Shown one piece after another: positions 907 to 40,835 of a DNA stretch of 41,094 bases. Each line of letters starts with the position of its first letter. Within the stretch, counting starts at the first letter, position 1. The stretch is from a virus, in the IMG/VR virus record IMGVR_UViG_3300049203_000137, positions 1 to 41,094 of that record. One strand, written 5' to 3'. Below the pieces are notes generated by a model. That model saw only the letters and a list, made by a program, of their open reading frames with translations. It ran no database searches and was not told where the DNA came from. Made by a program: the position numbers and the translations under genes.

Positions 907-981
907 TTAGCGACGCGAAGCCGCGATCTGCGCGCGGTATCGCTCGGGCAACGACGCGGGGTCTATTCGGGTCCGGCTCAT
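907..981 (-). CDS. Possible 24-aa leader ORF before the RusA-like gene
   Basis: ATG 981-979, stop TAA 909-907, sequence MSRTRIDPASLPERYRAQIA plus four residues. The 'DPASLPERYRAQI' wording resembles N-terminal stretches of phage nuclease-type proteins, so this may be the remnant of a longer N-terminus, cut off when the adjoining cassette inserted, rather than a free peptide. Very short, so uncertain. Confidence 0.3.
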   Translation of the reverse strand: MSRTRIDPASLPERYRAQIAASRR

Positions 982-1011
982 GTTATCCGACGCTGAGTCG
1001 CACAATCACTT

Positions 1012-1018
1012 GTTAGGC
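1012..1018 (-). other. Inverse core of a degenerate attC-like site
   Basis: GCCTAAC on the minus strand ends the two-gene cassette, and its eight-base context CGCCTAAC is complementary to that cassette's own start GTTAGGCG at 1374-1367. Only a short hairpin (CGAC/GTCG, loop 5) follows it and no GTTRRRY core is visible beyond, so the distal half looks decayed, or marks the junction with phage DNA. Confidence 0.35.
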
Positions 1019-1225
1019 GGATGCGAGGCGCACGACGGCGTAGATGAGCCACACGAAAAGCGTGACGATGAGCGCCGCGCCGTGGGCCAACAGGACATCG
1101 ACGCCGAAATCGTATTGGCCGCGAATCGGGCCGCGCTTGATTGAGTAGCGAACAGAGCGCCAGAAGGCGTATGCGGTGATTGCGGCCGGGATGAGCCACC
1201 AGCCAAAGGCGATTGTGATGTTCAT
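1013..1225 (-). CDS. Small membrane protein, 70 aa (cassette gene)
   Basis: Starting at ATG 1225-1223 (MNITIAFGWWLIPAAITAYA) the product has two hydrophobic segments, about residues 5-22 and 47-66, separated by a basic loop with RYSIKRGPIRGQYDF, so it is probably a two-pass inner-membrane protein. The start overlaps the stop of the 41-aa gene upstream (ATGA). The stop TAA falls inside GCCTAAC, the inverse-core motif of an attC-like site, as in the neighbouring cassettes. Function unknown; a holin-like role cannot be excluded but nothing supports it beyond topology. Confidence 0.6.
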   Translation of the reverse strand: MNITIAFGWWLIPAAITAYAFWRSVRYSIKRGPIRGQYDFGVDVLLAHGAALIVTLFVWLIYAVVRLASA

Positions 1226-1347
1226 GTGCAGTCGATCACGACGCCGAGCATCGGCACCGGGAAGATGTAGAGTTTGCGTTTCTTGGAGTCCCAAAAGAGG
1301 CCGACCCAAAGGTCATACCACGCGAAGAGGAGTTTGATTCGTTTCAT
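1222..1347 (-). CDS. Small protein, 41 aa (cassette gene)
   Basis: ATG 1347-1345; sequence begins MKRIKLLFAWYDLWVGLFWD and continues with KKRKLYIFPVPMLGVVI. The FAWYD-W-G-FWD then LYI-P-P pattern is one I recall from tiny phage and mobile-element proteins with no known function. It ends in ATGA coupling to the 70-aa membrane protein. It is the first gene after the core site GTTAGGC of the attC at 1368-1424, so the two genes together would make one two-gene cassette (about 1012-1373). Confidence 0.6.
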   Translation of the reverse strand: MKRIKLLFAWYDLWVGLFWDSKKRKLYIFPVPMLGVVIDCT

Positions 1348-1367
1348 GTTTTCGTGGGCGTTTTTGC

Positions 1368-1424
1368 GCCTAACCGGGCGCCTATCCCAACGAGCTGCGC
1401 TCGTGGGATGCCTGGGTGTTAGGC
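1368..1424 (-). repeat. attC-like recombination site 1 (57 bp)
   Basis: Read on the minus strand it starts with inverse core GCCTAAC (1424-1418) and ends with core GTTAGGC (1374-1368), which pair fully. Inside, ACCCAGGC pairs with GCCCGG (one G-T pair), then ATCCC/GGGAT and ACGAG/CTCGT stack into one long hairpin with a single unpaired A and a small loop. Length 57 bp is the classic size for short integron attC sites. The TAA stop of the upstream gene is inside the inverse core. Positions 1379-1426 are identical to 38386-38433. Confidence 0.75.
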
Positions 1425-1688
1425 AGATGATCTGTGCTTAATCGCGAGGTCTAAGACCGCGTTCACGAATTGGTCGAAGCCCTGATCGGTCAGCTTCGCA
1501 CTCAGCTTCTGCGCCTCGGCCATCGTTTTCTGAATGCGGATCTGCGACTTCAGGTATCGGATGTATTCCGCCATCTCTAGGACGGTCGGACGATCCTCCG
1601 CGGAAAGCACGCGGCGCTCGAATTGATCGAGGAAATCCGGTGACTCGAATTGTGTCAGTCTGGCCTCTGTCAGTTTCGTGTAGTCCAT
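1419..1688 (-). CDS. Cassette gene, helical protein of unknown function, 89 aa
   Basis: ATG 1688-1686 with a strong ribosome site (GAGGAG eight bases upstream), sequence MDYTKLTEARLTQFESPDF at the start. Predicted almost all helical; residues 37-66 (TVLEMAEYIRYLKSQI...EAQKLSAKL) have heptad-like spacing. The stop TAA is in the inverse core of the attC downstream. The segment starts with GTTAGGCAGAT and ends ATCTGCCTAAC, an 11-base match of its own two ends, exactly the layout of an integron cassette (about 1374-1714, 341 bp). No promoter is seen, so it depends on operon transcription. No function assigned. Confidence 0.75.
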   Translation of the reverse strand: MDYTKLTEARLTQFESPDFLDQFERRVLSAEDRPTVLEMAEYIRYLKSQIRIQKTMAEAQKLSAKLTDQGFDQFVNAVLDLAIKHRSSA

Positions 1689-1708
1689 AGTTTTCTCCTC
1701 TCAAATCT

Positions 1709-1761
1709 GCCTAACCTGTCATCGGTCCGAACGCGTTGCGTCGGACGCTTGGGTGTTCGAC
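1709..1761 (-). repeat. attC-like recombination site 2 (53 bp)
   Basis: Minus strand: inverse core GTCGAAC (1761-1755) and terminal core GTTAGGC (1715-1709), so the 3' core belongs to the next cassette, as expected in an array. The middle forms a GC-rich hairpin: GTCCGA/TCGGAC plus CGC/GCG with one bulged A and a three-base loop. The central 40 bases are nearly identical to site 3. Confidence 0.7.
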
Positions 1762-2061
1762 CTAAGCGAACGCGTGATGCAGGTAGCGCCCCACGCGTTC
1801 GAGTTTGTGGATAGCGGAAATGGCGATGTCCTCGCGCGCCAAGTCCCCGGCCTTATGCATCATCGTGACGGCTGCGTCTACGTGGCCAAGTTCGTCGGCA
1901 AGAAGAGTCCGATTAGTTAGCTCTCTCGGATAGTTCGGGTTGTAGCTCTCGTAGCCATGTCGCAGGATTTTTCCGACGACCTGGATTACTTCGGCGCATT
2001 CCTCGGCCAAAAGCGCGAGGCGCTCGGCCTCCGCTGGGGTGAGTTTATTGAAGTGTGACAT
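1762..2061 (-). CDS. MazG-like nucleotide pyrophosphohydrolase, cassette gene, 99 aa
   Basis: Likely a small all-alpha NTP/dNTP pyrophosphatase of the MazG/MazG-like superfamily, which hydrolyses (d)NTPs to monophosphates, either house-cleaning or shifting nucleotide pools. Residues 17-25 hold LLAEECAEV, the EExxE metal-binding motif, and residues 53-60 hold LLADELGHV, the matching ExxD helix with His in place of the usual Asp, which may weaken activity. The length fits single-domain members. The stop TAG directly abuts the inverse core of attC site 2; the cassette starts GTTCGACCTA and ends TAGGTCGAAC, a perfect 10-base match. It is thus a mobile cassette with metabolic cargo. Confidence 0.65.
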   Translation of the reverse strand: MSHFNKLTPAEAERLALLAEECAEVIQVVGKILRHGYESYNPNYPRELTNRTLLADELGHVDAAVTMMHKAGDLAREDIAISAIHKLERVGRYLHHAFA

Positions 2062-2072
2062 GATAAAAATAG

Positions 2073-2125
2073 GTCGAACCTGTCATCGGTCCGAACGCTT
2101 CGCGTCGGACGCTTGGTTGTTCACC
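2073..2125 (-). repeat. attC-like recombination site 3 (53 bp)
   Basis: Minus strand: inverse core GGTGAAC (2125-2119), core GTTCGAC (2079-2073). Central hairpin GTCCGA/TCGGAC with CGC-TTC-GCG tip and a bulged A, near-identical to site 2. The core deviates from GTTRRRY at the fourth base, but matches the inverse core of the next cassette perfectly. The upstream gene's last 15 codons lie within the site. Confidence 0.6.
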
Positions 2126-2361
2126 ACACGCCGGATATGGACGAAGTATCCCACGGCACCGGGAGCAGGCGCCGGGCGATAAGCATAGCCGGGCGTGATG
2201 CGCTCTGTCCTTAGGCTAGAAAACGGGCCGGTCCCGCCGACCCAGACCTTGTCAGTAGCACGCGAGACTTCGCCGGGGCGCAGTTCGCGGAATCCGGCCG
2301 GGATCTCCGGCCGCGTGGCGCTGGCAGGCTGCGGGGTGTCGTTGGTGGGTGTAGTGCTCAT
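2083..2361 (-). CDS. Phage protein reading into attC site 3, 92 aa
   Basis: ATG 2361-2359. Residues 21-55 (IPAGFRELRPGEV...TDKVWVGG) resemble the N-terminal part of the protein at 9099-9557 (LPAGWRWLRVGEI...GDEI), so the two are probably paralogues of a small phage family. The C-terminal 15 residues (from VVNNQASDAKRS) are encoded by the attC hairpin itself, so the native end was probably replaced when cassettes joined here. I could not find the expected cassette start (GTTCACC) upstream, so this may be a phage gene adjoining the array, or an old cassette with an eroded start. Function unknown. Confidence 0.6.
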   Translation of the reverse strand: MSTTPTNDTPQPASATRPEIPAGFRELRPGEVSRATDKVWVGGTGPFSSLRTERITPGYAYRPAPAPGAVGYFVHIRRVVNNQASDAKRSDR

Positions 2362-2404
2362 TTGATTACGTTGGGTTTAGAGGCCGGATTGCTCACCGTG
2401 GTGT

Positions 2405-2710
2405 TCAGTATTTCAGTTCCTTCCGCGTGATCGTCGTGACCGGCGGGGGCTGGACGCATCCGCGCACCTCGACCGACTTGTGTCCGGGCGTCAGGTCGAA
2501 GGAGATTTCCAGCGTCAGCTTGCCCTTCATGTGGCCCGACTGGAGCGCGCAGCCCTTGATGATCGGGAAGTTTAGGGCAATCGCCTCGCGAACGGCGTTC
2601 TCCGCTGCCTCGACTATCACCGGCTCCGACCGTTGGAAGTCGTCCACCGTGGCCTCAAGCTCGCGTCGGCGAGCATTGCGTTTCTCGATTTCCTGATGGG
2701 GGCCGTTCAT
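2405..2710 (-). CDS. Hypothetical phage protein, 101 aa
   Basis: The chosen start is ATG 2710-2708, overlapping the upstream stop (ATGA), rather than an in-frame start 48 bases earlier. Residues 1-45 are a charged helix (EIEKRNARRRELEATVDDFQ), followed by a strand-rich half (KGKLTLEISFDLTPG..VEVRGCVQPPPVTTI). The helix-plus-beta layout is common in small phage proteins of unknown role. It is part of the tightly overlapping early operon 2.4-5.7 kb. Confidence 0.6.
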   Translation of the reverse strand: MNGPHQEIEKRNARRRELEATVDDFQRSEPVIVEAAENAVREAIALNFPIIKGCALQSGHMKGKLTLEISFDLTPGHKSVEVRGCVQPPPVTTITRKELKY

Positions 2711-3174
2711 GCCGCCGCTCCCTTCTCCGCGCGCTTGGCCCGGATGAGCGCGATGCAAATCGCCCTAGCCCACGTAGGCGCAAGAGCGTGAATGACTGCA
2801 TCGTCCCCCTCAATCGTTCGCGCAACACCGACTGACCACGGTTTTCCGTTTAGGTGGGATTCGCGCGTAATGTCGCAAAATGGGAAGGCATCCGTGAACG
2901 GCAGCACGGCGTCGGCGGAGGTGGCGAAGCGGGGGGTGCGGTGGAGCCTGTGCGGTGAGCCGCAATAGAACTTATTGCCATCCTCATCTACGAAGGCGCT
3001 AAAGTCACCAAGCTCTCTATTTGGAGAAGATACGTGAAATCGCATCGGGTGCTTCCGGGCCTTTCGGTCTGCCCATTCGTAGAATACCTTTACGGGCCCA
3101 AATTCAGCGCACTCCACGGCGAACACCTCGCTCAACTCGGCGTCGGTCAGTTGGTCTAGGGTGTCGGCGATCAT
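2707..3174 (-). CDS. Phage ABA-sandwich-like protein, 155 aa
   Basis: Resembles small phage proteins with the 'phage ABA sandwich' fold, of unknown function. Features seen: an N-terminal helix (IADTLDQLTDAELSEVFAVE), a central strand region (FSAFVDEDGNKFYCG), the segment FPFCDITRES followed by W at the start of a strand, and the closing helix TWARAICIALIRAKR that in this family follows a short loop. ATGA overlaps link it to both neighbours. Family placement is by pattern only. Confidence 0.55.
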   Translation of the reverse strand: MIADTLDQLTDAELSEVFAVECAEFGPVKVFYEWADRKARKHPMRFHVSSPNRELGDFSAFVDEDGNKFYCGSPHRLHRTPRFATSADAVLPFTDAFPFCDITRESHLNGKPWSVGVARTIEGDDAVIHALAPTWARAICIALIRAKRAEKGAAA

Positions 3175-3494
3175 GTTGAAGCCCTCCCTAAGATCCGGAC
3201 CGCGCGTGAAACAGTTGAGCGAGCGACTCCGAACTGCGCGGCCGTGTCTTCGTGCGAGCGGCCCTTTGCTGCCTTCGCGATTTTCTCGAGGTCGATGCGC
3301 GTCTTCGCCGGCACCAAGTTATTCAGCCGGCACGATCTGCGGACGAGAAACGGCGATACTCCGAAGCGCTCGACAGTCGCGCTTGTGCCGTTGCGTGCGG
3401 CGAACTTGGCCAGCATGCGCGTCTCGTCTTTTGTCAGCCGACGAAAGATGTTTTTCCCGCCGTTGTCTCGGGTGGGTGCGTTGAGGCGTTTCAT
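3171..3494 (-). CDS. Helix-turn-helix DNA-binding protein, 107 aa
   Basis: The start is placed at ATG 3494-3492 (MKRLNAPTRDNGGKN) because it overlaps the stop of the upstream gene. It contains two HTH-like stretches: residues 33-60 (AARNGTSATVERFGVSPFLVRR) and residues 78-102, where HEDTAAQFGVARSTVSRAVR is a clear HTH recognition pattern similar to resolvase/transposase or sigma-type HTHs. It may regulate the early operon or bind the replication origin; target unknown. Confidence 0.6.
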   Translation of the reverse strand: MKRLNAPTRDNGGKNIFRRLTKDETRMLAKFAARNGTSATVERFGVSPFLVRRSCRLNNLVPAKTRIDLEKIAKAAKGRSHEDTAAQFGVARSTVSRAVRILGRAST

Positions 3495-4222
3495 CGTGCT
3501 CCTCCTTCCACCCGCTTGAACGCCACGACCCACACATACGGATTCGCGTCCCACGAGCCGGCGCCGTTTAGTTTTTCCCACAGCTTGCGGTAGCTGCGGC
3601 GCGCCGTATCGAGCAAGGAGCCGGGATTCGGCACCACATGCGTGACCTTGTGCCCCAACCAGTCATCGCCGACCTTCGGGACGCCGTGGACATAGTTGGG
3701 AGCAATGTCGCAGGCGTAGCCCTTGGTGGTGAAAATCGAAACCATGTCTGGGCTGCGAACCTCCGCCACCCCCTCCGCCACCGCGTCCGCCTCGCTGATG
3801 TCCTGCAACCGCTCCAGGCGGACGGAGGTGATTTCGAGGGTGATGCGGGAGGCCCAGCGCGGCATGTGAATCGACGGACGCCAGCGGAACACGGCGCGCA
3901 AGTCCCCGCCTTCGTCGTCCGCCGGATAGCTGACATGGTAGCCATCAGGAAGCGCCTTCGGGATGCCCTTGGCGTAGTCGTAGGCGATACCCTCGCCGTC
4001 GTAGAGTCCCCAAGTTTCGCGGACCCAGAGCGTATCGCCGGGGGCGCCGTAGGGGCAGGGCAATTGATCCAGCGGAACGGGGTGGTCGCCGTTGAGGGAC
4101 CATCCCTCCTCCCACTCGACGAGGTCGCCCTTGAGGATCCGCCGCGTCTGGGTCTTCGGGTCGATCTCGCGGAGCAACGCGCGGATCATGGAAGCTGAAA
4201 ATAGTATCGGCCGGGATTTCAC
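3491..4222 (-). CDS. ASCH-domain-like phage protein, 243 aa
   Basis: The start is GTG 4222-4220, overlapping the upstream stop (GTGA). It opens KSRPILFSASMIRALLRE and then KTQTRRIL, the hallmark of phage proteins often labelled 'morphogenetic' or ASCH-like, a beta-barrel fold related to PUA that binds RNA or modified nucleotides. Other family features: YGAPGDTLWVRETW (about residues 55-72), SIHMPRWASRITLEI (115-130), and a C-terminal YRKLWEKLNG...WDANPYVWVVAFKR. The precise role in phage is unknown; some bacterial ASCH proteins hydrolyse N4-acetylcytidine. A much longer upstream extension in the same frame is not supported. Confidence 0.65.
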   Translation of the reverse strand: MKSRPILFSASMIRALLREIDPKTQTRRILKGDLVEWEEGWSLNGDHPVPLDQLPCPYGAPGDTLWVRETWGLYDGEGIAYDYAKGIPKALPDGYHVSYPADDEGGDLRAVFRWRPSIHMPRWASRITLEITSVRLERLQDISEADAVAEGVAEVRSPDMVSIFTTKGYACDIAPNYVHGVPKVGDDWLGHKVTHVVPNPGSLLDTARRSYRKLWEKLNGAGSWDANPYVWVVAFKRVEGGAR

Positions 4223-4809
4223 GCGGCACCTCCTTTCGCGTCGGCATCCGCTGCGGTCGCTTTCCACGCAGGCAGGCACTCGGCGCCGACGGCTTTTTTC
4301 ACGGCGCCAGGCGGCACGGTTGCCCACCACGCGGACAGCGATGCGGTTCCTTCGCGGGCCTTGGTGTTGCCGATGTCTTCGAGCGTGGCGCGGTCGGGTT
4401 GCTGCGCGGACGCGGCGGGCGCCTGCTCAACCAGTGGCTCGACGCGATGAGGCTTCCGCTTGCCGCGTGCCTCGGTTAGCGCCATGATGATCGCTTGGGT
4501 GATGCCGGACGCGTGCGAGATGCGAATCCCGCCGACTGCCTCACCGCCGAATTTTATCGCGGGATCGCGGTAGAGGGTGACGCGCTGGCCGACGTATGTT
4601 TTTCCCTCGGAGCCCCACAGGGCAACGAGGACGCGGCGCATGGATTTGCTCGGGCGGTAGGCGCGCTTATCGCCGACGAAGTAAATGTTCACCGGCTGCT
4701 CTGCGCTGCCGGCTTCGACGGCTTCGATTGTGACCGTGCGCGGTCCGCCGATCAGGTCGTCGGCGTTCCACTGGTCGGACTTGGGAATAATGGTGTTCGC
4801 GAGATTCAT
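4219..4809 (-). CDS. Conserved protein of the recombination module, 196 aa
   Basis: ATG 4809-4807 (MNLANTIIPKSDQWNADDLI). The pattern IPKSDQ-NADDLIGGPRTVTIEAVE, then EQPVNIYFVGDKRAYRPSKSM, VALWG and TLYRDPAIKFGG..GGIRISH belongs to a phage protein family that regularly sits next to RecE/lambda-type exonucleases. The first 125 residues look like one beta-rich domain, possibly a single-strand DNA-binding or nuclease-partner protein. The last 70 residues are Ala/Glu-rich and variable. Its position immediately downstream of the exonuclease supports a recombination role (inference). Confidence 0.6.
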   Translation of the reverse strand: MNLANTIIPKSDQWNADDLIGGPRTVTIEAVEAGSAEQPVNIYFVGDKRAYRPSKSMRRVLVALWGSEGKTYVGQRVTLYRDPAIKFGGEAVGGIRISHASGITQAIIMALTEARGKRKPHRVEPLVEQAPAASAQQPDRATLEDIGNTKAREGTASLSAWWATVPPGAVKKAVGAECLPAWKATAADADAKGGAA

Positions 4810-4810
4810 G

Positions 4811-5680
4811 TTAGACGGTGATTTCAGTTTCGGACTCGTCCAGGAACGCGGGGATTTCGACCAAGAGGGTCTCGGCAGACGGCACGGGATAAGCGCCGGA
4901 CGCGGCGCACTCCTGCCAGATACGGATGCCCTCGCAGACCTTCTTGCGCGCCTCTGATTTGTAGGTGGACGAAAGCCCGGCCCGGCGAACGGTGTAGGGC
5001 GGCACGGTCTCGAAAAAGACCAGCGTGAAGGAGCGGACTAGCTTGGGCGCGAGCACTTCGAGGCCGCGCAGGTAGAAGGATTCCTGGATGTCGTATCGGA
5101 AATTCGCGATGGCCTTTTCGATTCCGCGGTCGCTGATGTCGCGCGTCGATTTCCAGTCCCAAATGTCGGCGGTGAATTGGTCTGACACGAGAACGTCGTA
5201 TCGCGCGCGGCAATACACGTTGCCCTCCTTCCAGATGGCCGTTACCTCGTGGCGGGCATCGGGGCAGAACGGGCCGCGGTCAATGTCCTTGGCGGCACGG
5301 GCGCGAACATGGTCCGCGACCTTGAGCGCGGACTCGTAGGCGCGAGGCAGAACGGGCACACGGCCGGCCTCGCGTGTGTCGGCACGCCATGCCTGCGCCG
5401 CCTTGCTTTTGAAGTCGTCGAAGTTGCCGACGCTGATCTCGTCCTGATGGCCAGAGAGGATCGCATGGACGAGTGACCCGGTCTCCATGGACTCGGTAGC
5501 CTCGCGCGATTCTGCGCCTAGCCGCGGATGCTCAAGTGCCGCGTGTGCCGGCGACTTCGCTAGCAAAGTCCGCAAGCATCCCGACGAAAGCGAAGGCGCC
5601 GGCGCCGGATCCGCGTGATAGACCGCGGCCGGGATGTTGTGGTGTAGGCCGACGTCGAGCGTCGGTGTGCCTGTGCTCAC
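4811..5680 (-). CDS. PD-(D/E)XK exonuclease of RecE/lambda-exonuclease type, 289 aa
   Basis: Probable double-strand 5'-3' exonuclease that makes 3' single-strand tails for phage recombination. The start is GTG 5680-5678, overlapping the upstream stop (GTGA). Key motifs: an early SSGCLRTLLAKSPAHA helix typical of PDDEXK_1/RecE C-terminal domains; GSLVHAIL, the conserved helix with His; the catalytic core RARYDVL....DIWDWKSTRD, supplying Asp and the D-x-K pair; and QESFYLRG, the QxxxY motif of this nuclease class. No RecT/Red-beta annealing protein is obvious next to it, so the partner may be the protein at 4219-4809 or an unrecognised one. Confidence 0.75.
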   Translation of the reverse strand: MSTGTPTLDVGLHHNIPAAVYHADPAPAPSLSSGCLRTLLAKSPAHAALEHPRLGAESREATESMETGSLVHAILSGHQDEISVGNFDDFKSKAAQAWRADTREAGRVPVLPRAYESALKVADHVRARAAKDIDRGPFCPDARHEVTAIWKEGNVYCRARYDVLVSDQFTADIWDWKSTRDISDRGIEKAIANFRYDIQESFYLRGLEVLAPKLVRSFTLVFFETVPPYTVRRAGLSSTYKSEARKKVCEGIRIWQECAASGAYPVPSAETLLVEIPAFLDESETEITV

Positions 5681-6822
5681 TTCGCACCCCCTTGCAGCGC
5701 GAGCCACTCCCGACGGATTGCATTGAGTAGATCGCCGACAGCAACGCCGACGCGCTGGGCAGCCTGCTTGCCTTCGGGCGTGGTGAGCTCGGGGACTTCG
5801 AGCGTCTTGACCAGCTCGGCGAACGCCTTGAGTTTCTCCTGATCCGGTGCGGCGGCGGCACGGCGAGCGGCTTCGGCTTCCTCTTCCTGCCGCTTCTTTT
5901 CGGCAGCAACGCGGGCGCGCTCTGCGGCCTCCAGTGCCTCGCGCTTCTCGCGCTCGATCTGCGCGAGACGGGCGGCCTCTTTGCGCTCGGCGGCTGCCTT
6001 TGCTTCGAGGGCCTCTCGCTCCTTGCGCGCCTGCTCGGCTGCAACACGCGCCGCCTCCGCGGCCTTTTCGCGCTCGGCTTTGGCGGCGGCTTCCAGCGCC
6101 TCACGCTCGGCGCGGGCCTTCTTCTCGGCCTCGGCGCGTTCGGCGGCAAGTCGCTCGTTCTCCACACGCAGGCGCTCGGCCTCGGCTTTGATGCGCTCAC
6201 GCTCGGCCGCTTCGGCCTTCTCGCGGGCGATGCGTTCAGCCTCCGCTTTCTCGGCGGCGATAAGAGCCTCTTCCTTGGCCTTCGCCTCAGCAGCGAGCCT
6301 GGCCTCGTGCGCAACCTTGGACGAAGAAAGCAACTGCGCGTAGCCCTCCGCGGGCATGGCGCCGAGGTCGTAGAATTGGCAATCGACACCGAAAGCAGAA
6401 AGCTCGGTGGTGCGCTCGGCTTTAAGTGTGGCCTTGCGTGCGGCCTCGGCGCGTTCTGCCGCCTTCTCGATCTCGTCGAGGCGAGCCTCGGCGTTTTCAA
6501 GCGGGCCGGTGACGCGGTTGAAGTAGGCGTCGGCGAGGCGACCAGCTAGCAGGATGTCGGCTTTTACCGTATCCTTGGTTTGCTTACACGCGCTCCGGTG
6601 CGCGCGCATTTCGAGGCGCAGCTTGCGCGCATCCTTGGGTGTCGTGGCGTCCTTCTCCTTAGCGAGGAGCGACGCCGAATCCGCGAAAAGCTTTTGAAAG
6701 GGCGTGAACGATGCCAGCGCGGTTTCTTTCGGCGCGTGTAGTTCTGTCGAGACTGCCGCGACTTCGGGCGGCATGACTTCGAGCTCGAGGGCGGGCTTGA
6801 CTGCGGTGTTTTCGGTAATCAT
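5677..6822 (-). CDS. Long coiled-coil phage protein, 381 aa
   Basis: ATG 6822-6820. Three parts are visible: residues 1-120, a globular N-terminus (FTPFQKLFADSASLLAKEKD, then a basic helix KDARKLRLEMRAHRSACK); residues 120-325, an almost uninterrupted Ala/Glu/Lys/Arg helix (repeats like AEAERIAREKAEAAERERI), predicted to be a long single alpha-helix or coiled coil; and residues 330-381, a small C-terminal domain (LKAFAELVKTLEVPEL...). Similar proteins occur beside phage recombinases, where they may be scaffolds or SbcC-like partners. Function unknown. The biased composition produces long false frames on both strands here. Confidence 0.65.
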   Translation of the reverse strand: MITENTAVKPALELEVMPPEVAAVSTELHAPKETALASFTPFQKLFADSASLLAKEKDATTPKDARKLRLEMRAHRSACKQTKDTVKADILLAGRLADAYFNRVTGPLENAEARLDEIEKAAERAEAARKATLKAERTTELSAFGVDCQFYDLGAMPAEGYAQLLSSSKVAHEARLAAEAKAKEEALIAAEKAEAERIAREKAEAAERERIKAEAERLRVENERLAAERAEAEKKARAEREALEAAAKAEREKAAEAARVAAEQARKEREALEAKAAAERKEAARLAQIEREKREALEAAERARVAAEKKRQEEEAEAARRAAAAPDQEKLKAFAELVKTLEVPELTTPEGKQAAQRVGVAVGDLLNAIRREWLALQGGAK

Positions 6823-6861
6823 GAGACAGGTGTTGTTTTGTTAGTTGCGAATGCTCTTGAG

Positions 6862-6883
6862 CGCCCCGGTTGCCTCCGGGGCG
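6862..6883. terminator. GC-rich hairpin between early genes
   Basis: CGCCCCGG pairs with CCGGGGCG around a 6-base loop. It lies between the 35-aa gene and the coiled-coil gene. On the plus strand it is followed by TTCTGCTTTT, a weak U-tract, so it could act as a weak terminator in that sense; on the minus strand no T-run follows, so there it would be an attenuator or mRNA-stability hairpin. Confidence 0.4.
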
Positions 6884-15085: not shown

Positions 15086-15327
15086 AAAAGCAGATCCGCG
15101 AAGTGCCTGCCCCGAGCACCATGACCCGCGAGAGCTTTGCCGACCAGCTACGACCCCACGTCGAGCGGATCGGCACTGCCGAGTCTGCTCGCATCTGCGG
15201 GGTGACGCCGCGCGCGATTCAACTTTGGCTCGCGAATCCGGAGAACCCGCCAAACGCCGCGACGCAGGCCGGGGCGCTCCTGTTACTCAAGAAAGCAAAG
15301 ACGCCGGCCGGACGCGGCTCGGGGTGA
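15082..15327 (+). CDS. HTH regulator, 81 aa
   Basis: ATG 15082 overlaps the stop of the previous gene. Residues 28-55 (ERIGTAESARICGVTPRAIQ followed by LWLANPENPP) form a clear helix-turn-helix, followed by a helix (ATQAGALLLLKKA). Such small single-domain HTH proteins often autoregulate their operon; the twin operators at 14691-14737 are the obvious candidate target. Confidence 0.6.
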   Translation: MKKQIREVPAPSTMTRESFADQLRPHVERIGTAESARICGVTPRAIQLWLANPENPPNAATQAGALLLLKKAKTPAGRGSG

Positions 15328-15555
15328 TTTTATTTTACCCTCCTCCCTTGGGTCCTTTTCCCCTCTGCTCCCCCGTTATTCGCTGCCGTCGACCTCGTCT
15401 GATTCGGGTCAATCTGAAGCAGTCGGGTTAGTCGTCGCTCCACACTTCACCCCTGCTCGGGATGGAGTGTGAGTTGATTCGGGTCTGAATCAGTTCGGAA
15501 GCCTGCGCCCCTTGTCCCGGTCGGCCGTGCTGGTTCCGCTCTAGCGCCCACGTTC

Positions 15556-15577
15556 CGAAACGGGAATTCCCGTTTCG
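15556..15577. promoter_or_regulatory. Perfect 22-bp palindrome
   Basis: Half-site CGAAACGGGAA and its exact reverse complement with no spacer. Perfect palindromes of this length in a phage control region usually mark a dimeric regulator site; no poly-T follows, so it is not a terminator. Confidence 0.5.
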
Positions 15578-15732
15578 ATCCGACCGGCATTCACCGCGCC
15601 CCACAAGCAGGCACCGCAACATTAAAAGCCGGGAGGGTGTCTTCCAGCTTGCCAGTCTCTCCATCCGTCACGCCGAGGCGCTCAGGGCTGGGTTTGTTTT
15701 TCCGCACCGGGCGGCATCGGGCAAAAACAGAA

Positions 15733-15766
15733 AGCCCGCCAAGTGGGTGACGGGACTTGGCGGGCT
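15733..15766 (-). terminator. Rho-independent terminator after the integrase
   Basis: On the minus strand AGCCCGCCAAG pairs with CTTGGCGGGCT over a 12-base loop, and is followed by TTTCTGTTTTTG. It lies about 120 bases after the integrase stop and fits termination of that transcript. Confidence 0.65.
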
Positions 15767-15773
15767 CAAAGGT

Positions 15774-15814
15774 GAGCGGGCTAGCTGCAAGTTTCCTTGC
15801 AGTGTCACCCGCTC
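15774..15814. repeat. Long two-stem hairpin
   Basis: Outer stem GAGCGGG/CCCGCTC and inner stem CTGCAAG/CTTGCAG with a TTTC loop, separated by small internal loops. Immediately beside the terminator; it may extend it or be a protein site. Confidence 0.45.
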
Positions 15815-15887
15815 GGATGACTACGCACCGAGTCTTTTGGCGTGAGGCTTGGCAAGCCTTGTGTAGTGGATACGTGATACAGCGCAG

Positions 15888-17129
15888 TCAAACCGACGGC
15901 ACCTTGGCCAGCTCTGCCGCGGCTTGGTCAAGCTCCGTGTGGGTATAGCCCCGATTGACCGCCTCGTCCTCGTGCCCGATTAGCCGCATCCGCCAGTCCT
16001 CGCCGACGCCGGCCGCAGCAAGCCACGATGAGAGCGAGTGGCGAAGGGAGTGCAGCGAGTATTCGGCGAGTCGCCGGCCGAGCCCTCGCCCCTCTCCGCT
16101 GGCGAACTCCTGCACGATCCCGGCACGGGGCAGGATGCCGCGGCGGAACTCGTTCGAGACGTGCCGGCGCTGCATCGCCGCAATGTGCGGCATAACCTTT
16201 CCGCGTCGCTCTGGCTCGGGAGTCCGTGCGAGATGCGCAGCAAGCGAGGCATGGAGGGGAATCCAGTGCTCATCCCCGTTCTTCGCGCGCTCGAGCATGA
16301 TCCGGCGCCGCGTCAAATCTACCTGCGCCCATGAGAGCTGCGCCGCCTCCTGCTGCCGCGCGCCGGTGTATCCGCACACCATGACCAACGTTTGCCAGTC
16401 GGGCGGTAGCGTGAAGTTTTTGCCACGCCCTCCGGCCCCCGGTCGCACGTAGTCCGGCGCCGTCACCCTCACCAATTCACGGAATTGCTCAAACGTGAAC
16501 GCACGTCGCTTCTGCGCGGTCCGCTTCTCGCCCTTCACGTTGATCCCGCGGGCGGGGTTGACCGGCACCAAGCCGGTCGTGTGCGCCTCGGCGAACGCCT
16601 GGGCTAGGACCATGAGTGATTTGTTCACCGTGCGCGCGGATTTCCCGGCCGCTGTCTGCGCGTCGCGAAACTCGACCACTCGCGCACCGGTTATTTCGCC
16701 GAGCTGCCCACGGGCCCGCGGCCCAAGGAACGACAGGAACTCGTCGACAATCCCGGCGTATCGCGCGAAAGACGCGGGCTTCAGTGATCGCTCGCGCCCG
16801 CCGAGCCAGCGCCGAAGATAGTCGTCAGCCTGAACCGTCGCGCCCGTCGAAACGCCCACGATGGCCTCGACCTCGGCAAGGAACCGGCGCGCCGAATTTT
16901 CACCCCATCGCTTCTCCGCCGCCGCAATGGCCGCGCGCTCGTAGCTGATAGCGAGTTGCAGCGCCTTGGTCTTGTCATCCGTGCCGGTGGATCTCTGGAC
17001 GCGCCGAAACACGGGCTTTCCCTTGTCGTCGATGCCGCCCGTCGGCATCTTGTAGCACGCGAACCAGTGAGAAGTGCCTGCGCGAGATCGAACAGAAGCC
17101 ATGACAACAGGACTGACCACCGGTGCCAT
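15888..17129 (-). CDS. int: Tyrosine-recombinase phage integrase, 413 aa
   Basis: Catalyses site-specific integration and, with an excisionase, excision. Visible architecture: an N-terminal arm-binding region (residues 10-50, GTSHWFACYKMPTGGIDDKG), a SAM-like core-binding domain (95-190, with FARYAGIVDEFLSFLG), and a catalytic domain with R258 (GYTGARQQEAAQLSW), K283 (AKNGDEHWIP), H360 and R363 (LHSLRHSLSSWLA), H386 (LIGHEDEA) and nucleophile Y395 (GYTH). All expected residues are present. ATG 17129 has a GGCGGGG ribosome site; ATG 17102 is the alternative. It lacks the extra helix typical of integron integrases, so it is not expected to move the attC cassettes. Confidence 0.9.
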   Translation of the reverse strand: MAPVVSPVVMASVRSRAGTSHWFACYKMPTGGIDDKGKPVFRRVQRSTGTDDKTKALQLAISYERAAIAAAEKRWGENSARRFLAEVEAIVGVSTGATVQADDYLRRWLGGRERSLKPASFARYAGIVDEFLSFLGPRARGQLGEITGARVVEFRDAQTAAGKSARTVNKSLMVLAQAFAEAHTTGLVPVNPARGINVKGEKRTAQKRRAFTFEQFRELVRVTAPDYVRPGAGGRGKNFTLPPDWQTLVMVCGYTGARQQEAAQLSWAQVDLTRRRIMLERAKNGDEHWIPLHASLAAHLARTPEPERRGKVMPHIAAMQRRHVSNEFRRGILPRAGIVQEFASGEGRGLGRRLAEYSLHSLRHSLSSWLAAAGVGEDWRMRLIGHEDEAVNRGYTHTELDQAAAELAKVPSV

Positions 17130-19083: not shown

Positions 19084-19635
19084 TCAGTCCCAGATGGCGG
19101 TGCCTGAGCAAATGAACAGCGAGCGCGACTCGCGCACCGGCCGCCCGGTCACGGTGACGGTGCTGCCGCTGAGGGTCACGTCCGCCAAGGTGAGGTGCTT
19201 CAGGGTGCTCGTATCGGCCGGCGTGCTTGCGGCATTCTTCGTGTCGATGGCGGTCGCAGTGCCCGCGGCGTCCACGGTCGCCTCAAGGTAGATCGTGCCG
19301 GCTGTGGTGATTGTGAGCGAGGGCCGCGGAACCGTCGCCATCGTCGAGCCACCGCCGACCGTCGGACTGATGTTTGCCCCGGCATTGGTGATGATACCGG
19401 GCTCGAAGGAGACCGTTGCGGCTCCTGCTGCTGGGATCGGCTCAAATGGGTCGGCTGCGCGCGCCTCTCCGAGATAACGACCACGTGAGGCGGGAGCTAG
19501 CGTAGTGCCATTCGGAGTTTGCGAGACACGGATGAATGCGGAAGGTCGAATGGTGATCGACCTCACGTAATTTCGCATATCCCGACAGAACGTCGGCACG
19601 TCGTGGAGCCCCTTGGGTTGGTCGGGAAACTTCAT
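19084..19635 (-). CDS. Tail-region structural protein, 183 aa
   Basis: ATG 19635-19633 (MKFPDQPKGLHDVPTFCRDM) overlaps the upstream stop. The second half is Thr/Ala/Gly-rich beta structure (TTAGTIYLEATVDAAGTATA; TLADVTLSGSTVTVTGRP), typical of virion surface proteins. Located between two other tail-end proteins; likely a minor tail or baseplate component. Confidence 0.5.
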   Translation of the reverse strand: MKFPDQPKGLHDVPTFCRDMRNYVRSITIRPSAFIRVSQTPNGTTLAPASRGRYLGEARAADPFEPIPAAGAATVSFEPGIITNAGANISPTVGGGSTMATVPRPSLTITTAGTIYLEATVDAAGTATAIDTKNAASTPADTSTLKHLTLADVTLSGSTVTVTGRPVRESRSLFICSGTAIWD

Positions 19636-36651: not shown

Positions 36652-36846
36652 TCATGCTGATTGCTGCGCTGTCCCTGCTGTCGTGGTGCTGGCGGGCGAT
36701 GCTATCGCCTTCCCCGCCGAATCGAACCGCTCAGCGAACCAAGCGACGCCGCTCTTGGGCTGATGCGTGCAGGTAGGTCCGCCGACAGCGGCGACGATGT
36801 TGCGAGCGAGGCAGGCGGGGCAGTGGTCGGGCGCGATGTTGTGCAC
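36652..36846 (-). CDS. Small Cys-containing protein, 64 aa
   Basis: The start is GTG within the repeated leader (GTGCACAACATCGC, read MHNIA). It continues DHCPACLARNIVAAVGGPTC with a CPAC motif and two Cys/His more (CTHQ), so it could bind zinc. Alternative start codons are absent. The leader is duplicated upstream of the 101-aa gene, so part of it may be regulatory rather than coding. Confidence 0.4.
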   Translation of the reverse strand: MHNIAPDHCPACLARNIVAAVGGPTCTHQPKSGVAWFAERFDSAGKAIASPASTTTAGTAQQSA

Positions 36847-36864
36847 GGTCTGATATACAAACGG
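36833..36864 (-). repeat. 32-bp direct repeat, copy 1
   Basis: Identical to 38035-38066 for 32 bases, from GCGATGTTGTGCACGG to ATACAAACGG on the plus strand, and followed in both copies by CAGTGGTTC (36878 and 38071). The pair flanks a 1.2-kb block with the 101-aa gene and the DpdA-like gene. Confidence 0.8.
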
Positions 36865-36896
36865 TCGTTGGCTGAATCAGTGGTTCGGCAGAGAGG

Positions 36897-37640
36897 TCAT
36901 GCGAATGCGAGCGCCCCCTGCCGTTCTTGGCGCTCAATTCGGAATTGGAAGGCTTGCGCCTCCCGGTAGTCGTTCGCGTTGCGGCCCTGCTTCCGAGCTG
37001 CAAACGACCACGCCATGCTGTCGGCGGTGTGCAGCAGGTCGAAGACGCCGCCGTCTCCTAGGGCCGTCGTCTTGAGGCCGAAGCCGTGCAGACGGAGGTC
37101 GGGACGCTCGCGCTTGATCGCGCTCAGCACGTCGTAGATCGCGCCGGGGTCCGCGTTGCGCTTGCACACGCTGCCGACGCCGACCCACATCCCGACCGTG
37201 AGCCGCGAGCCGTAGGCGCGGGCGTGGGCGACGTAATCGGACGGCGCGAACCCTTGCAGGACGGGCATTATGTAGGCCGTGGTTTTCGCGCGGATCGCGT
37301 CGTATCGCTCGATTGTCAGCCGCTGGTGATCGGGGATTGTGAGCCCGGTTTTTCCCAGAATCCACGGCTCGCACATGTAATCCTGCGAGACGGCAGCGAG
37401 CATGTTTCCGCACTTCCGCCACCGCTCGATTTGCGCGACGTAGCCGTCCACGCTCTCACGGTAGCGGCCATGCGTTGCGATTTCCGTGAAAGCTCCGGAG
37501 TCCATTATCCAGTCCCCGACCACGAAGTCAGACCGGCGATTCCGCAGTCGATTCACCGACACGAAAGCGGACGCGAAGTGCTGCGCGTCGCTTGGCTGAT
37601 GGAGCCCGACGAAGAGACGGCATTTCGTTGCGTTGTTCAT
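36897..37640 (-). CDS. dpdA: DpdA-like deazaguanine DNA transglycosylase, 247 aa
   Basis: Likely swaps guanine in phage DNA for a 7-deazaguanine base (preQ0 or a derivative), which blocks restriction. Recognised from the TGT-related pattern: MDSGAF (46-51, Asp expected in the active site), a YVAQIERWRK helix, QDYMCEP (86-92, second Asp), DHQRLTIERYDA, MPVLQG (125-130), WVGVGSVCKR (152-161), HGFGLK (185-190) and ADSMAWSFAARKQGR. These match small phage DpdA proteins of the DUF7221 type. There is no folE/queC/D/E in the window, so the precursor would come from the host. The gene lies in the block bounded by direct repeats. Confidence 0.75.
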   Translation of the reverse strand: MNNATKCRLFVGLHQPSDAQHFASAFVSVNRLRNRRSDFVVGDWIMDSGAFTEIATHGRYRESVDGYVAQIERWRKCGNMLAAVSQDYMCEPWILGKTGLTIPDHQRLTIERYDAIRAKTTAYIMPVLQGFAPSDYVAHARAYGSRLTVGMWVGVGSVCKRNADPGAIYDVLSAIKRERPDLRLHGFGLKTTALGDGGVFDLLHTADSMAWSFAARKQGRNANDYREAQAFQFRIERQERQGALAFA

Positions 37641-37683
37641 GTTCGTTTTTCGGAGCCGAACCAGACGGTGGAGGAGACGGCTT

Positions 37684-37989
37684 TCAGCCGCTCCTCACCT
37701 CGGTGTTCGACGGACGACCGTAGGCGGTCGCGTTCATCGCGGACCACTCGCCGAGCTGCCTCTCCATATCCCGCAGCGCCTCCTGCGCCTTGACGATGTG
37801 GTCGAGCGCGACGGCGAGCTTGTGGCATCCACAGACTCCGCCTGCCGGATACTCAGGGAGCTCCATGGCGCGCAGGGGATGCTGGACGTTTTGGAGTGCG
37901 TTGCCCGCTGCATCCAGCACGTCGAACCAATCGCTGGAGGAAGGAACGCCGGTATCTGCCGGCCGTTGGGAGTTGGTTGGTGTTTCCAT
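37684..37989 (-). CDS. Hypothetical phage protein, 101 aa
   Basis: ATG 37989-37987 (METPTNSQRPADTGVPSSSD). Ordered part: WFDVLDAAGNALQNVQHPLR, LPEYPAGGVCGCHKLAVALD, then HIVKAQEALRDMERQLGEW. The CGCH could bind metal. It follows the second leader repeat and precedes the DpdA-like gene; could be a helper of it, but no homolog is recognised. Confidence 0.5.
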   Translation of the reverse strand: METPTNSQRPADTGVPSSSDWFDVLDAAGNALQNVQHPLRAMELPEYPAGGVCGCHKLAVALDHIVKAQEALRDMERQLGEWSAMNATAYGRPSNTEVRSG

Positions 37990-38034
37990 GGTTGCGAGGA
38001 TAGCTCATCCCGTGCGATGGCGACAACCCCGCAG

Positions 38035-38066
38035 GCGATGTTGTGCACGGTCTGATATACAAACGG
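38035..38066 (-). repeat. 32-bp direct repeat, copy 2
   Basis: Second copy of the repeat described at 36833-36864. On the minus strand it reads CCGTTTGTATATCAGACCGT followed by GCACAACATCGC. The TGTATATCA in it could serve as a -10-like element, so the repeat may carry a promoter. Confidence 0.8.
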
Positions 38067-38082
38067 CCGTCAGTGGTTCAGC

Positions 38083-38358
38083 TTAATCGCCCCAGTAGGA
38101 CATTTCGTCATCGGCGGCGTCCTCTGGGTTTTCGGTGAGATCGTCGTTGAGGTTTTCAAGCTGCGATTCCGCGAGGCCCTTTGCGTCCTCGACCGACATG
38201 CTCGGGCAGACGCTGCGGAATCGCGCAGCGCACCGCTCAAGCCATTGCTCGCGGGTTGGTGTAGGAGCCTCGGGATGCAGCACGCCGGCTTCGACGCTCT
38301 GCCCTTCTTCCTGTTGTGCCTTTTTCATAATCCAGTCTTTCGGTATGTTGAATTTCAT
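38083..38358 (-). CDS. Acidic phage protein, 91 aa
   Basis: ATG 38358-38356 (MKFNIPKDWIMKKAQQEEGQ). TREQWLERCAARFRSVCPSM, then SVEDAKGLAESQLENLNDDL and EDAADDEMSYWGD: an acidic helical protein ending in YWGD, a pattern frequent in small phage genes. Upstream, between the start and the cassette, the phrase GTCCAGC marks the cassette junction. Function unknown. Confidence 0.55.
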   Translation of the reverse strand: MKFNIPKDWIMKKAQQEEGQSVEAGVLHPEAPTPTREQWLERCAARFRSVCPSMSVEDAKGLAESQLENLNDDLTENPEDAADDEMSYWGD

Positions 38359-38374
38359 CGGTGGGATTTTCGGA

Positions 38375-38431
38375 GCTGGACCTGACGCCTATCCCAACGA
38401 GCTGCGCTCGTGGGATGCCTGGGTGTTAGGC
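38375..38431 (-). repeat. attC-like recombination site 4 (57 bp), end of lone cassette
   Basis: Minus strand: inverse core GCCTAAC (38431-38425), then the same hairpin as site 1, but the final core reads GTCCAGC instead of GTTAGGC. In cassette chemistry the last six bases come from the flanking DNA, so this is expected for a cassette inserted at a non-attC target. Bases 38386-38433 are identical to 1379-1426. Confidence 0.7.
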
Positions 38432-38620
38432 AGAGACGGTCCGTGCCTTTTCGACGAGGCCGTGAATCGGCAGGCAGTTCATGACTGCGAGCGTTCCTAG
38501 ATCCTTTTCGGCGGCGGGCGGCAAAGTGATGCGATATTTATCCCAAAGCATCATCGCCATTCCCCGCCCGATCTCGTCGGCAAGAGCTTCGGTTTCTTTG
38601 GTGAGTTCGGCATTGGTCAT
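38426..38620 (-). CDS. Cassette gene, helical protein, 64 aa
   Basis: ATG 38620-38618 (MTNAELTKETEALADEIGRG). Helical, with MAMMLWDKYRITLPPAAEKD and ending VEKARTVSA; the TAA stop is inside GCCTAAC. The cassette starts with GTTAGGCGCC (38647-38638), complementary to its own inverse core. About 266 bp in all, in keeping with single-gene cassettes. Function not recognised. Confidence 0.7.
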   Translation of the reverse strand: MTNAELTKETEALADEIGRGMAMMLWDKYRITLPPAAEKDLGTLAVMNCLPIHGLVEKARTVSA

Positions 38621-38663
38621 GGTTTCGAAAGGTTGAGGGCGCCTAACCTCGGGGCTCGCTGTG

Positions 38664-38688
38664 AACTATCCGGAAATTCCGGATAGTT
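38664..38688. promoter_or_regulatory. 25-bp inverted repeat after the DnaC-like gene
   Basis: Arms AACTATCCGGA and TCCGGATAGTT with a three-base centre AAT. It lies right after the DnaC-like gene and just before the lone cassette, without a following poly-T on either strand. Could be a hairpin attenuator or a dimeric protein site. Confidence 0.5.
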
Positions 38689-38702
38689 GGCTGGAACGGT
38701 GC

Positions 38703-39893: not shown

Positions 39894-40835
39894 TTAAAAC
39901 GCATTCCTGCGCTGCATGATCGGGTCGTCGGGCGACATGCCCGGGTATTCGCGGGACGTGCCGTGGCCGTGGGCTTTCGCGATGTCGCAGCGGGCCCAGT
40001 GCCGGGCCAAGGCCGGCGCAGTCAGGGCGGCGCCGTCGAAGTGCGTGTGGTAGTTCGCGGCACGTCGGGCGATTTCGAACGGCGTCAGGTCGGGCGAGAC
40101 CTTGACGATCTTGGCAAGGGACACGCCGACAGCTCGTGCGGTGTCGGCGGTCAGCTGGGACGGCGCGCCGTCTGTGGCCTCGGCAAGGGCGTCGAAGAGC
40201 GGGTTGCGGTCGCGGGTTCTGGGCGGCGTTGCGGCGGGCGTGGCAGGGGCAGGGGCAGGCGGCGGAGGCGGGGTTGGCTCAGGTGCGGCGGGAGGCACCG
40301 CGAAAAGCTCTGCGGCCTCGCCCCCATCCGGTGCCCCGGCAGGGGCGGCGGAAGATTGATTCCCTTTCTCCTTCCTTTCCCCTTCTCCTTCCCTTTCCCC
40401 TTCCGCTTTCGCAAAAATAACCGACGTTGGTTTCTCTTGGGTTATGCCGTGGGTTATCTCGTGGGGGCCAACGTTGGGTCCCACGTTGGCCCCGGTATTG
40501 GTTTTTTCAGGACGGCCACCACGCAGGCCGTTCTTGCGGGCAACCTCGCGCCGAGTCTTCACCTCGTTCTCTTTTTCTCCGGGGTAAAAGCCGACGATCA
40601 GGTCGTCGCCATCCCACTTCCAGAGGCCGCAAGAGACCGAGACCTCGCGCAGGGTGACGCGGGCGAGCTGCTGCCACTGGCGATCCTTCCAAGTGCGTCC
40701 GCCGACGATGCGGCCGGAGTTCTCTTGGCCGATACAGAAGCGGAGCAGGCAGAGCCAGGTCGAGCGCTCGACGGGTGATGAGCCGACGAACTCGGGGGAG
40801 TCGAGGGTGGATGTGTGAAGATTAAGCCAGTCCAT
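39894..40835 (-). CDS. Replication initiator / DnaT-like protein, 313 aa
   Basis: The start is ATG 40835-40833 (MDWLNLHTSTLDSPEFVGSS); an upstream in-frame ATG would add 11 unconserved residues. Residues 1-95 form a winged-helix-like domain (RSTWLCLLRFCIGQENSGRI, WKDRQWQQLARVTLREVSVS, LWKWDGDDLIVGFYPGEKE) recalled from phage initiators. Residues 100-130 (RREVARKNGLRGGRPEKT) are basic. Residues 150-220 are Glu/Lys then Pro/Ala low complexity. The C-terminal domain (FEIARRAANYHTHFDGAALT) ends in a WARCDIAKAHG motif. Encoded upstream of the DnaC-like loader, so initiator is the likely role. The name is by position and pattern. Confidence 0.6.
   Translation of the reverse strand: MDWLNLHTSTLDSPEFVGSSPVERSTWLCLLRFCIGQENSGRIVGGRTWKDRQWQQLARVTLREVSVSCGLWKWDGDDLIVGFYPGEKENEVKTRREVARKNGLRGGRPEKTNTGANVGPNVGPHEITHGITQEKPTSVIFAKAEGEREGEGERKEKGNQSSAAPAGAPDGGEAAELFAVPPAAPEPTPPPPPAPAPATPAATPPRTRDRNPLFDALAEATDGAPSQLTADTARAVGVSLAKIVKVSPDLTPFEIARRAANYHTHFDGAALTAPALARHWARCDIAKAHGHGTSREYPGMSPDDPIMQRRNAF

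Follow-up and report, generated by a model that had tools for sequence, protein, structure and literature searches.

Integron-type cassette arrays with apparently inverted genes in a temperate siphophage

Introduction

Integrons are usually seen as bacterial gene-capture platforms that phages pick up at times. Phage-borne attC arrays have already been published by Qi et al. (2023, PMC9892861), in whose E. coli experiments the attC sites of virulent phages underwent recombination with IntI1. The intI-bearing examples of that study are either a class 1 integron or the integrons of Vibrio and Shewanella hosts, and it reports neither systematic gene inversion nor a phage integrase family with arrays of its own. 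The direction of a cassette can be read from its recombination site—the extrahelical bases that bulge from a true attC site decide which strand recombines, and hence the orientation of the cassette (PMC8946536).

Here we analyse a 41,094-base virus contig (IMG/VR record IMGVR_UViG_3300049203_000137; "the window"), which resembles the CALINs and integrons of Qi et al. in having cassette arrays and attC sites within a phage genome. With cellular integrons (class 1, and the chromosomal integrons of Gammaproteobacteria and Verrucomicrobiota) it shares bulged hairpins, complementary R'/R'' cores and the G|TT boundary; it differs from them in that its genes appear inverted within their cassettes, that it has no intI, and that many of its cores read GTTC..., outside the textbook GTTRRRY. 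Our main reading, to which we give a probability of about 0.78 from sequence comparison, is that this temperate siphophage carries two integron-type arrays without an intI of its own, that the cassette genes are inverted, and that IntI acts in trans. A literature search of incomplete coverage returned reports of phage integrons and none of inverted cassettes; relative to the literature searched, the inverted cassette genes are new, as is the number of phage contigs with IntI beside such arrays.

Two cassette arrays in a phage genome

The window encodes a large terminase, a portal, a major head protein, a tape-measure-like protein and a phage tyrosine integrase, and the minus strand carries nearly all of the genes examined; the phage is a temperate siphophage. 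An earlier sequence-only reading had proposed integron-type cassettes inside a phage genome, and the terminase, portal, major head protein and phage integrase, together with the circular-cassette signature described below, uphold that view. In a close relative (L004), a match to window positions 438-404 is followed within 0.9 kb by a match to 41081-39893, so the two ends of the window probably adjoin in the phage genome.

Folding places hairpins at all three positions of array 1 where attC-like sites had been proposed (1368-1424, 1709-1761 and 2073-2125), and the genes between them do share one orientation—the minus strand, which the proposal had left unnamed. The proposed "decayed fourth" site (from 1018) is a sound end core that no further hairpin follows, and it therefore looks like the end of the array. 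On the gene strand, the order is the native gene (2361-2083), attC3, GTTCGACCTA, gene 1, TAGGTCGAAC, attC2, GTTAGGCAGAT, gene 2, ATCTGCCTAAC, attC1, GTTAGGCG, two small genes and the end core CGCCTAAC. The first hairpin directly follows the AAC of the native gene, attC3 is 88% identical to attC2, and the stop of the 70 aa hydrophobic gene falls within the end core.

A second locus, suspected at 38350-38700, is real and larger than that; array 2 spans 38700-36887, with four genes and three hairpins (Table 1). The attC4-like hairpin has a decayed 5' half, since its first core is GAGC instead of AAC. attC5 differs from attC1 only beside the second core, although the cassette genes of the two differ. 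The last cassette gene of the array is that for DpdA, with cores GTTCGGC / GCCGAAC. Within the attC4-like hairpin lies a near-perfect inverted repeat, AACTATCCGGAATTTCCGGATAGTT (38664-38688), which has two copies in L004 (18416-18438 and 18762-18786) after the DnaC-like gene. The window contains two copies of a leader, GCCGTTTGTATATCAGACCGTGCACAACATCGCC... (36833-36892 and 37937-38070), each immediately following an AAC core, and L004 shares it (19397-19554); it may be a promoter or another type of array end.

Table 1. Features of the two arrays and related elements in the window (hairpins as predicted by folding).
Feature	Position	Strand	Remarks
39-nt element, attI-like candidate	976..1014	-	End of array 1, directly before the ATG of the next gene
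Cassette 3, two overlapping small genes	1013..1347	-	41 aa (1347-1222) and 70 aa, hydrophobic (1225-1013); 8 bp core match
attC1 hairpin	1375..1417	-	Fold; bulged base on 3' arm
Cassette gene 2, 89 aa	1419..1688	-	No confident family; cores GTTAGGCAGAT / ATCTGCCTAAC
attC2 hairpin	1716..1754	-	Fold
Cassette gene 1, 99 aa, MazG-like nucleotide pyrophosphohydrolase	1762..2061	-	phrog_4856 E 1.8e-18; cores GTTCGACCTA / TAGGTCGAAC
attC3 hairpin	2080..2118	-	Gene-strand cores 2119-2121 AAC and 2077-2079 GTT; fold and bulge count
Phage tyrosine integrase	15888..17129	-	phrog_1 E 9.4e-44; not an integron integrase
Cassette gene D, 247 aa, DpdA (deazapurine-in-DNA protein A)	36897..37640	-	PF23859 E 5.9e-40; phrog_1279 E 2.9e-64
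attC6 hairpin	37662..37704	-	3'-arm bulges (fold)
Cassette gene C, 101 aa	37684..37989	-	Start codon upstream of start core GTTCGACG; end core CGTCGAAC
Cassette gene B, 91 aa	38083..38358	-	End core AAGCTGAAC
attC5 hairpin	38382..38424	-	Nearly identical to attC1; second core decayed (GTC)
Cassette gene A, 64 aa	38426..38620	-	Cores GTTAGGC / GCCTAAC
attC4-like hairpin	38648..38700	-	After the DnaC-like gene; first core GAGC, not AAC

Cassette signature and controls

The self-matching of cassette ends that had been noticed in array 1 is recovered by an unbiased chain search, with complementary cores of 8 bp (end core at 1012-1019), 11 bp (1418-1428 / 1705-1715) and 10 bp (1755-1764 / 2070-2079). 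The detector looks only for GTT...AAC cores that complement each other over an intervening gene and are followed by a hairpin ahead of the next GTT. The window reaches a chain score of 9.5, whereas none of 400 dinucleotide-preserving shuffles of the whole window does so (maximum 7.0); the same detector also recovers class 1 plasmid integrons (L121-L123), chromosomal integrons (L181, L189, L190, L197) and the published array of phage TJE1. A stricter RYYYAAC/GTTRRRY pair finder was dropped, as it missed even class 1 arrays. Among the window cores, GTTAGGC fits the RYYYAAC ... GTTRRRY consensus; GTTCGAC, GTTCGGC and GTTCAGC deviate at position 4. The hairpins have extrahelical bases on one arm, as attC sites do, and with at least two attC sites bounding short genes and no intI nearby the array of the window is a CALIN by definition.

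Hairpins alone could be something simpler. Intergenic hairpins are common in phages, and the near-identical pairs attC1/attC5 and attC2/attC3 would suit terminators or RNA-processing sites that do not recombine themselves and have spread via homologous recombination. The complementarity, however, spans each gene and not each hairpin, and the cores vary between cassettes while matching within one; in other phages, moreover, IntI genes directly adjoin such arrays. We therefore regard non-recombining elements as a very improbable source of this pattern.

Searches by similarity returned little. An Rfam search of the window gave no match, nor did exact attC patterns run against viral contigs. A gapped attC pattern picked out 9 viral and 22 genome-contig stretches, all of which were judged to be chance after folding. 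The two pattern scans, over viral and genome contigs, thus yielded no host integron and no other viral integron with the attC sequence type of the window. Relatives of the cassette proteins are absent from the other fetched loci, apart from an 18-residue piece of gene C, and a search for cassette gene 1 on plasmids found none.

Cassette turnover in a close relative

One sequencing series supplies two contigs (L002/L004/L209 and L003) that are closely related to the window. Identity between relative and window is 99.7% over 1.2 kb around the replication gene and 95% over the DnaC-like gene; at the position of array 1, L004 has three other cassettes, with cores GTTCAGCC/GGCTGAAC, GTTCAGCT/AGCTGAAC and GTTCGCTAC/GTAGCGAAC. 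Another L004 array, of six cassettes, occupies the interval from the replication gene to DnaC, where the window has one plain gene. The crossover of integrons falls at the dinucleotide boundary G|TT, and it is directly after TTTTAAC (G|TTAAAAC on the plus strand), where the replication gene ends, that relative and window begin to diverge. By its own account, the sequence-only reading would be undermined by homologous phages whose genes were the same and whose hairpins were different or missing; the relative instead has the same flanks, other whole cassettes, and hairpins of the same kind.

More distant phages related through the terminase (58-59% identical) have no comparable array in the parts examined. 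One L004 cassette (15130-15966) encodes a PAPS-reductase-like protein (PF01507), a function listed as "moron" in PHROGs.

Cassette genes inverted relative to attC

We counted the small bulges on each arm of the predicted hairpins (minimum-energy folds with RNA parameters). Among the sites of the window and L004, bulges on the gene strand favour the 3' arm in 9 and the 5' arm in 0, with 7 ties; attC2 and attC3 are among the sites whose two arms have equal counts in the predicted fold. Cellular integrons give the opposite picture, with 5'-arm bulges on the gene strand by 18:0 (L189), 12:0 (L197), 20:0 (L181) and 7:0 (L184). In a canonical cassette the gene runs in the direction of its attC, and all nine informative sites of the window and L004 depart from this. 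Since the bulges of the gene strand lie on the 3' arm, the attC direction should be plus while the genes are minus; recombination is thus expected at the plus-strand G|TT, and the genes, all on the minus strand, would sit backwards in their cassettes. It follows that the hairpin upstream of a gene is read as travelling with the gene below it.

A more conventional origin has to be weighed here—that a phage captured ordinary cassettes from a host chromosomal integron, as in the CALINs of Qi et al. 2023, with normal gene polarity. Phage CALINs of canonical polarity exist; TJE1 and Rctr41k both have 5'-arm bulges when measured here, and in this respect the TJE1 array is unlike the window. Cassette structure and self-matching cores, for their part, are common to capture from a host and to our main reading. 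Host capture is nevertheless unlikely in our judgement, given the opposite-arm bulges at every informative site, the AAC of the native gene immediately preceding the first hairpin, and the outcome of the pattern scans. The suggestion that such a phage would move a host's cassette pool is accordingly not supported: the genes run opposite to those of cellular cassettes, the cargo is of phage type (MazG-like, DpdA, PAPS-reductase-like), and neither scan found a host integron of this attC type. A cassette pool circulating among phages fits better.

Flipped arrays beside phage integron integrases

The same layout recurs in dozens of other phages, and these encode IntI. The clearest case, L226, was fetched with the replication protein of the window and is a phage contig (head-tail connector, capsid); at 1322-6880 it has ten consecutive self-matching cassettes, ending 52 bases upstream of a co-directional integron integrase (TIGR02249 247 bits, E 2.6e-73, slightly below the curated cut-off of 265). 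Several of its cassette genes begin in a hairpin loop and finish in the next hairpin, so that each of these genes overlaps a recombination site at either end.

An alignment of four phage IntI sequences retrieved 261 viral stretches with relatives, some of which may be other tyrosine recombinases, as identity drops to about 30%. From the best 80 of these 261 stretches we counted arrays lying within 1 kb upstream of intI, with duplicates by core sequence removed, which left 33 viral arrays, set against 12 cellular ones. Cassette genes are co-directional with intI rather than antisense by 80:15 in the viral arrays and by 3:52 in the cellular arrays; gene direction was taken from the longest ORF, which makes some wrong calls in GC-rich DNA, by the same method for the cellular controls. 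Counted per array, 26 viral arrays lean towards co-directional genes, 2 towards antisense and 5 are undecided, whereas all 12 cellular arrays lean towards antisense. Fisher's test gives p values of 7e-23 when cassettes are counted and 1.6e-8 when arrays are counted, neither of which allows for relatedness. The polarity of attC relative to intI, as read from the bulges, agrees at 62:9 viral and 37:2 cellular sites—the attC-to-intI geometry of IntI-bearing phages is the same as that of cellular integrons.

Placing the viral rows on the IntI tree takes 7 changes, compared with 42 after shuffling. Flipped arrays are spread over about five distinct viral IntI branches, next to different terminases, portals and tail genes. 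The contigs are derived from metagenomes, and those with flipped arrays are taken to be phages because several bear terminase, portal or tail genes. In the flipped arrays the apparent start codon lies before the GTT core, in the upstream hairpin, in 63 cases and after the core in 29. Where the start lies in the hairpin, the start-to-core frames are evenly spread (22/22/19), which fits a hairpin and its downstream gene moving as one unit, since a split at the crossover would favour one frame; longest-ORF starts may lie too far upstream, and the frame spread serves as supporting evidence only.

A further viral IntI branch has the array downstream of intI. It includes phage Rctr41k (KX853513; L291 4680-9977), in which we find an IntI-like gene and five self-matching cassettes. 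Rctr41k differs from the flipped phages in having its array downstream of intI with canonical gene polarity, which is the other way to bring intI and cassettes into the same direction. A simple reading would be that phage operons favour one coding strand and that integrons in phages adapt to this in one of the two ways. In the Rctr41k record the "xerD integrase-like" gene is a relative of IntI, and the cassettes are annotated merely as ordinary genes.

Source of the integrase and a proposed mechanism

A complete integron includes an integron integrase gene, which L226 and other phages have; none was found in the window or in the examined parts of its relatives. The tyrosine integrase of the window is its sole PF00589 match and reaches 18 bits on the integron integrase model TIGR02249, against a cut-off of 265. 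As the window encodes this recombinase and no IntI, one might suppose that hairpin cassettes are moved by a different enzyme, such as the phage's own tyrosine integrase, which would have evolved this ability separately from integrons. The low score on the IntI model argues against this, as does the pairing of the same type of site with true IntI in other phages, and of the alternatives we consider this one the least probable.

We return to the main reading, an IntI acting in trans, for which the cassette unit would be a hairpin plus a gene, bounded by mutually complementary cores. The integrase would presumably come from a co-infecting or resident IntI-encoding phage, or from a host integron, and would most likely act while the phage replicates, excising and inserting units at the G|TT of sites folded from single strands. 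The benefit to the phage would be that inverted genes align with its early operon, where the early promoter would express whatever is inserted.

The 39-nt element at the end of array 1 has two copies at array ends in L004, and its position resembles that of the stretch which separates intI from the array in phages that encode IntI, with a weak sequence match. We do not claim it as an attI; it ranks 75th of 918 AAC sites by a position-weight matrix built from phage attI regions.

More broadly, integrons may be run by phages themselves—many phages would encode IntI and share a phage-specific pool of inverted cassettes, with inversion adopted repeatedly because operons need one strand, and the phage of the window, lacking intI, would draw on this pool in trans. 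We lean towards this wider account, with somewhat better than even confidence. Most detectable arrays beside viral IntI relatives have turned-round genes, which points to a viral cassette economy that swaps small genes, for example those for anti-restriction DNA modification. The arrays also bear on how genes and attC sites become joined: the flipped units have their start codon within the hairpin or close to it, and some native genes of phages are found with a hairpin attached at the stop codon. On the practical side, integron finders that assign direction by attC would put these cassettes on the wrong strand.

Host and minor observations

The nearest cellular IntI (L372 / L387; G144:C60) is of phage type, 50% identical to that of L226, and groups with the phage contigs L296/L297. 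It comes from a Verrucomicrobiota genome bin, on a 3.7-kb contig too short to reveal its surroundings; Verrucomicrobiota are a weak lead to a possible host. Within the replication gene of the window, short palindromic repeats, GGGGCCAACGTTGG / CCCACGTTGGCCCC, lie at 40464-40493.
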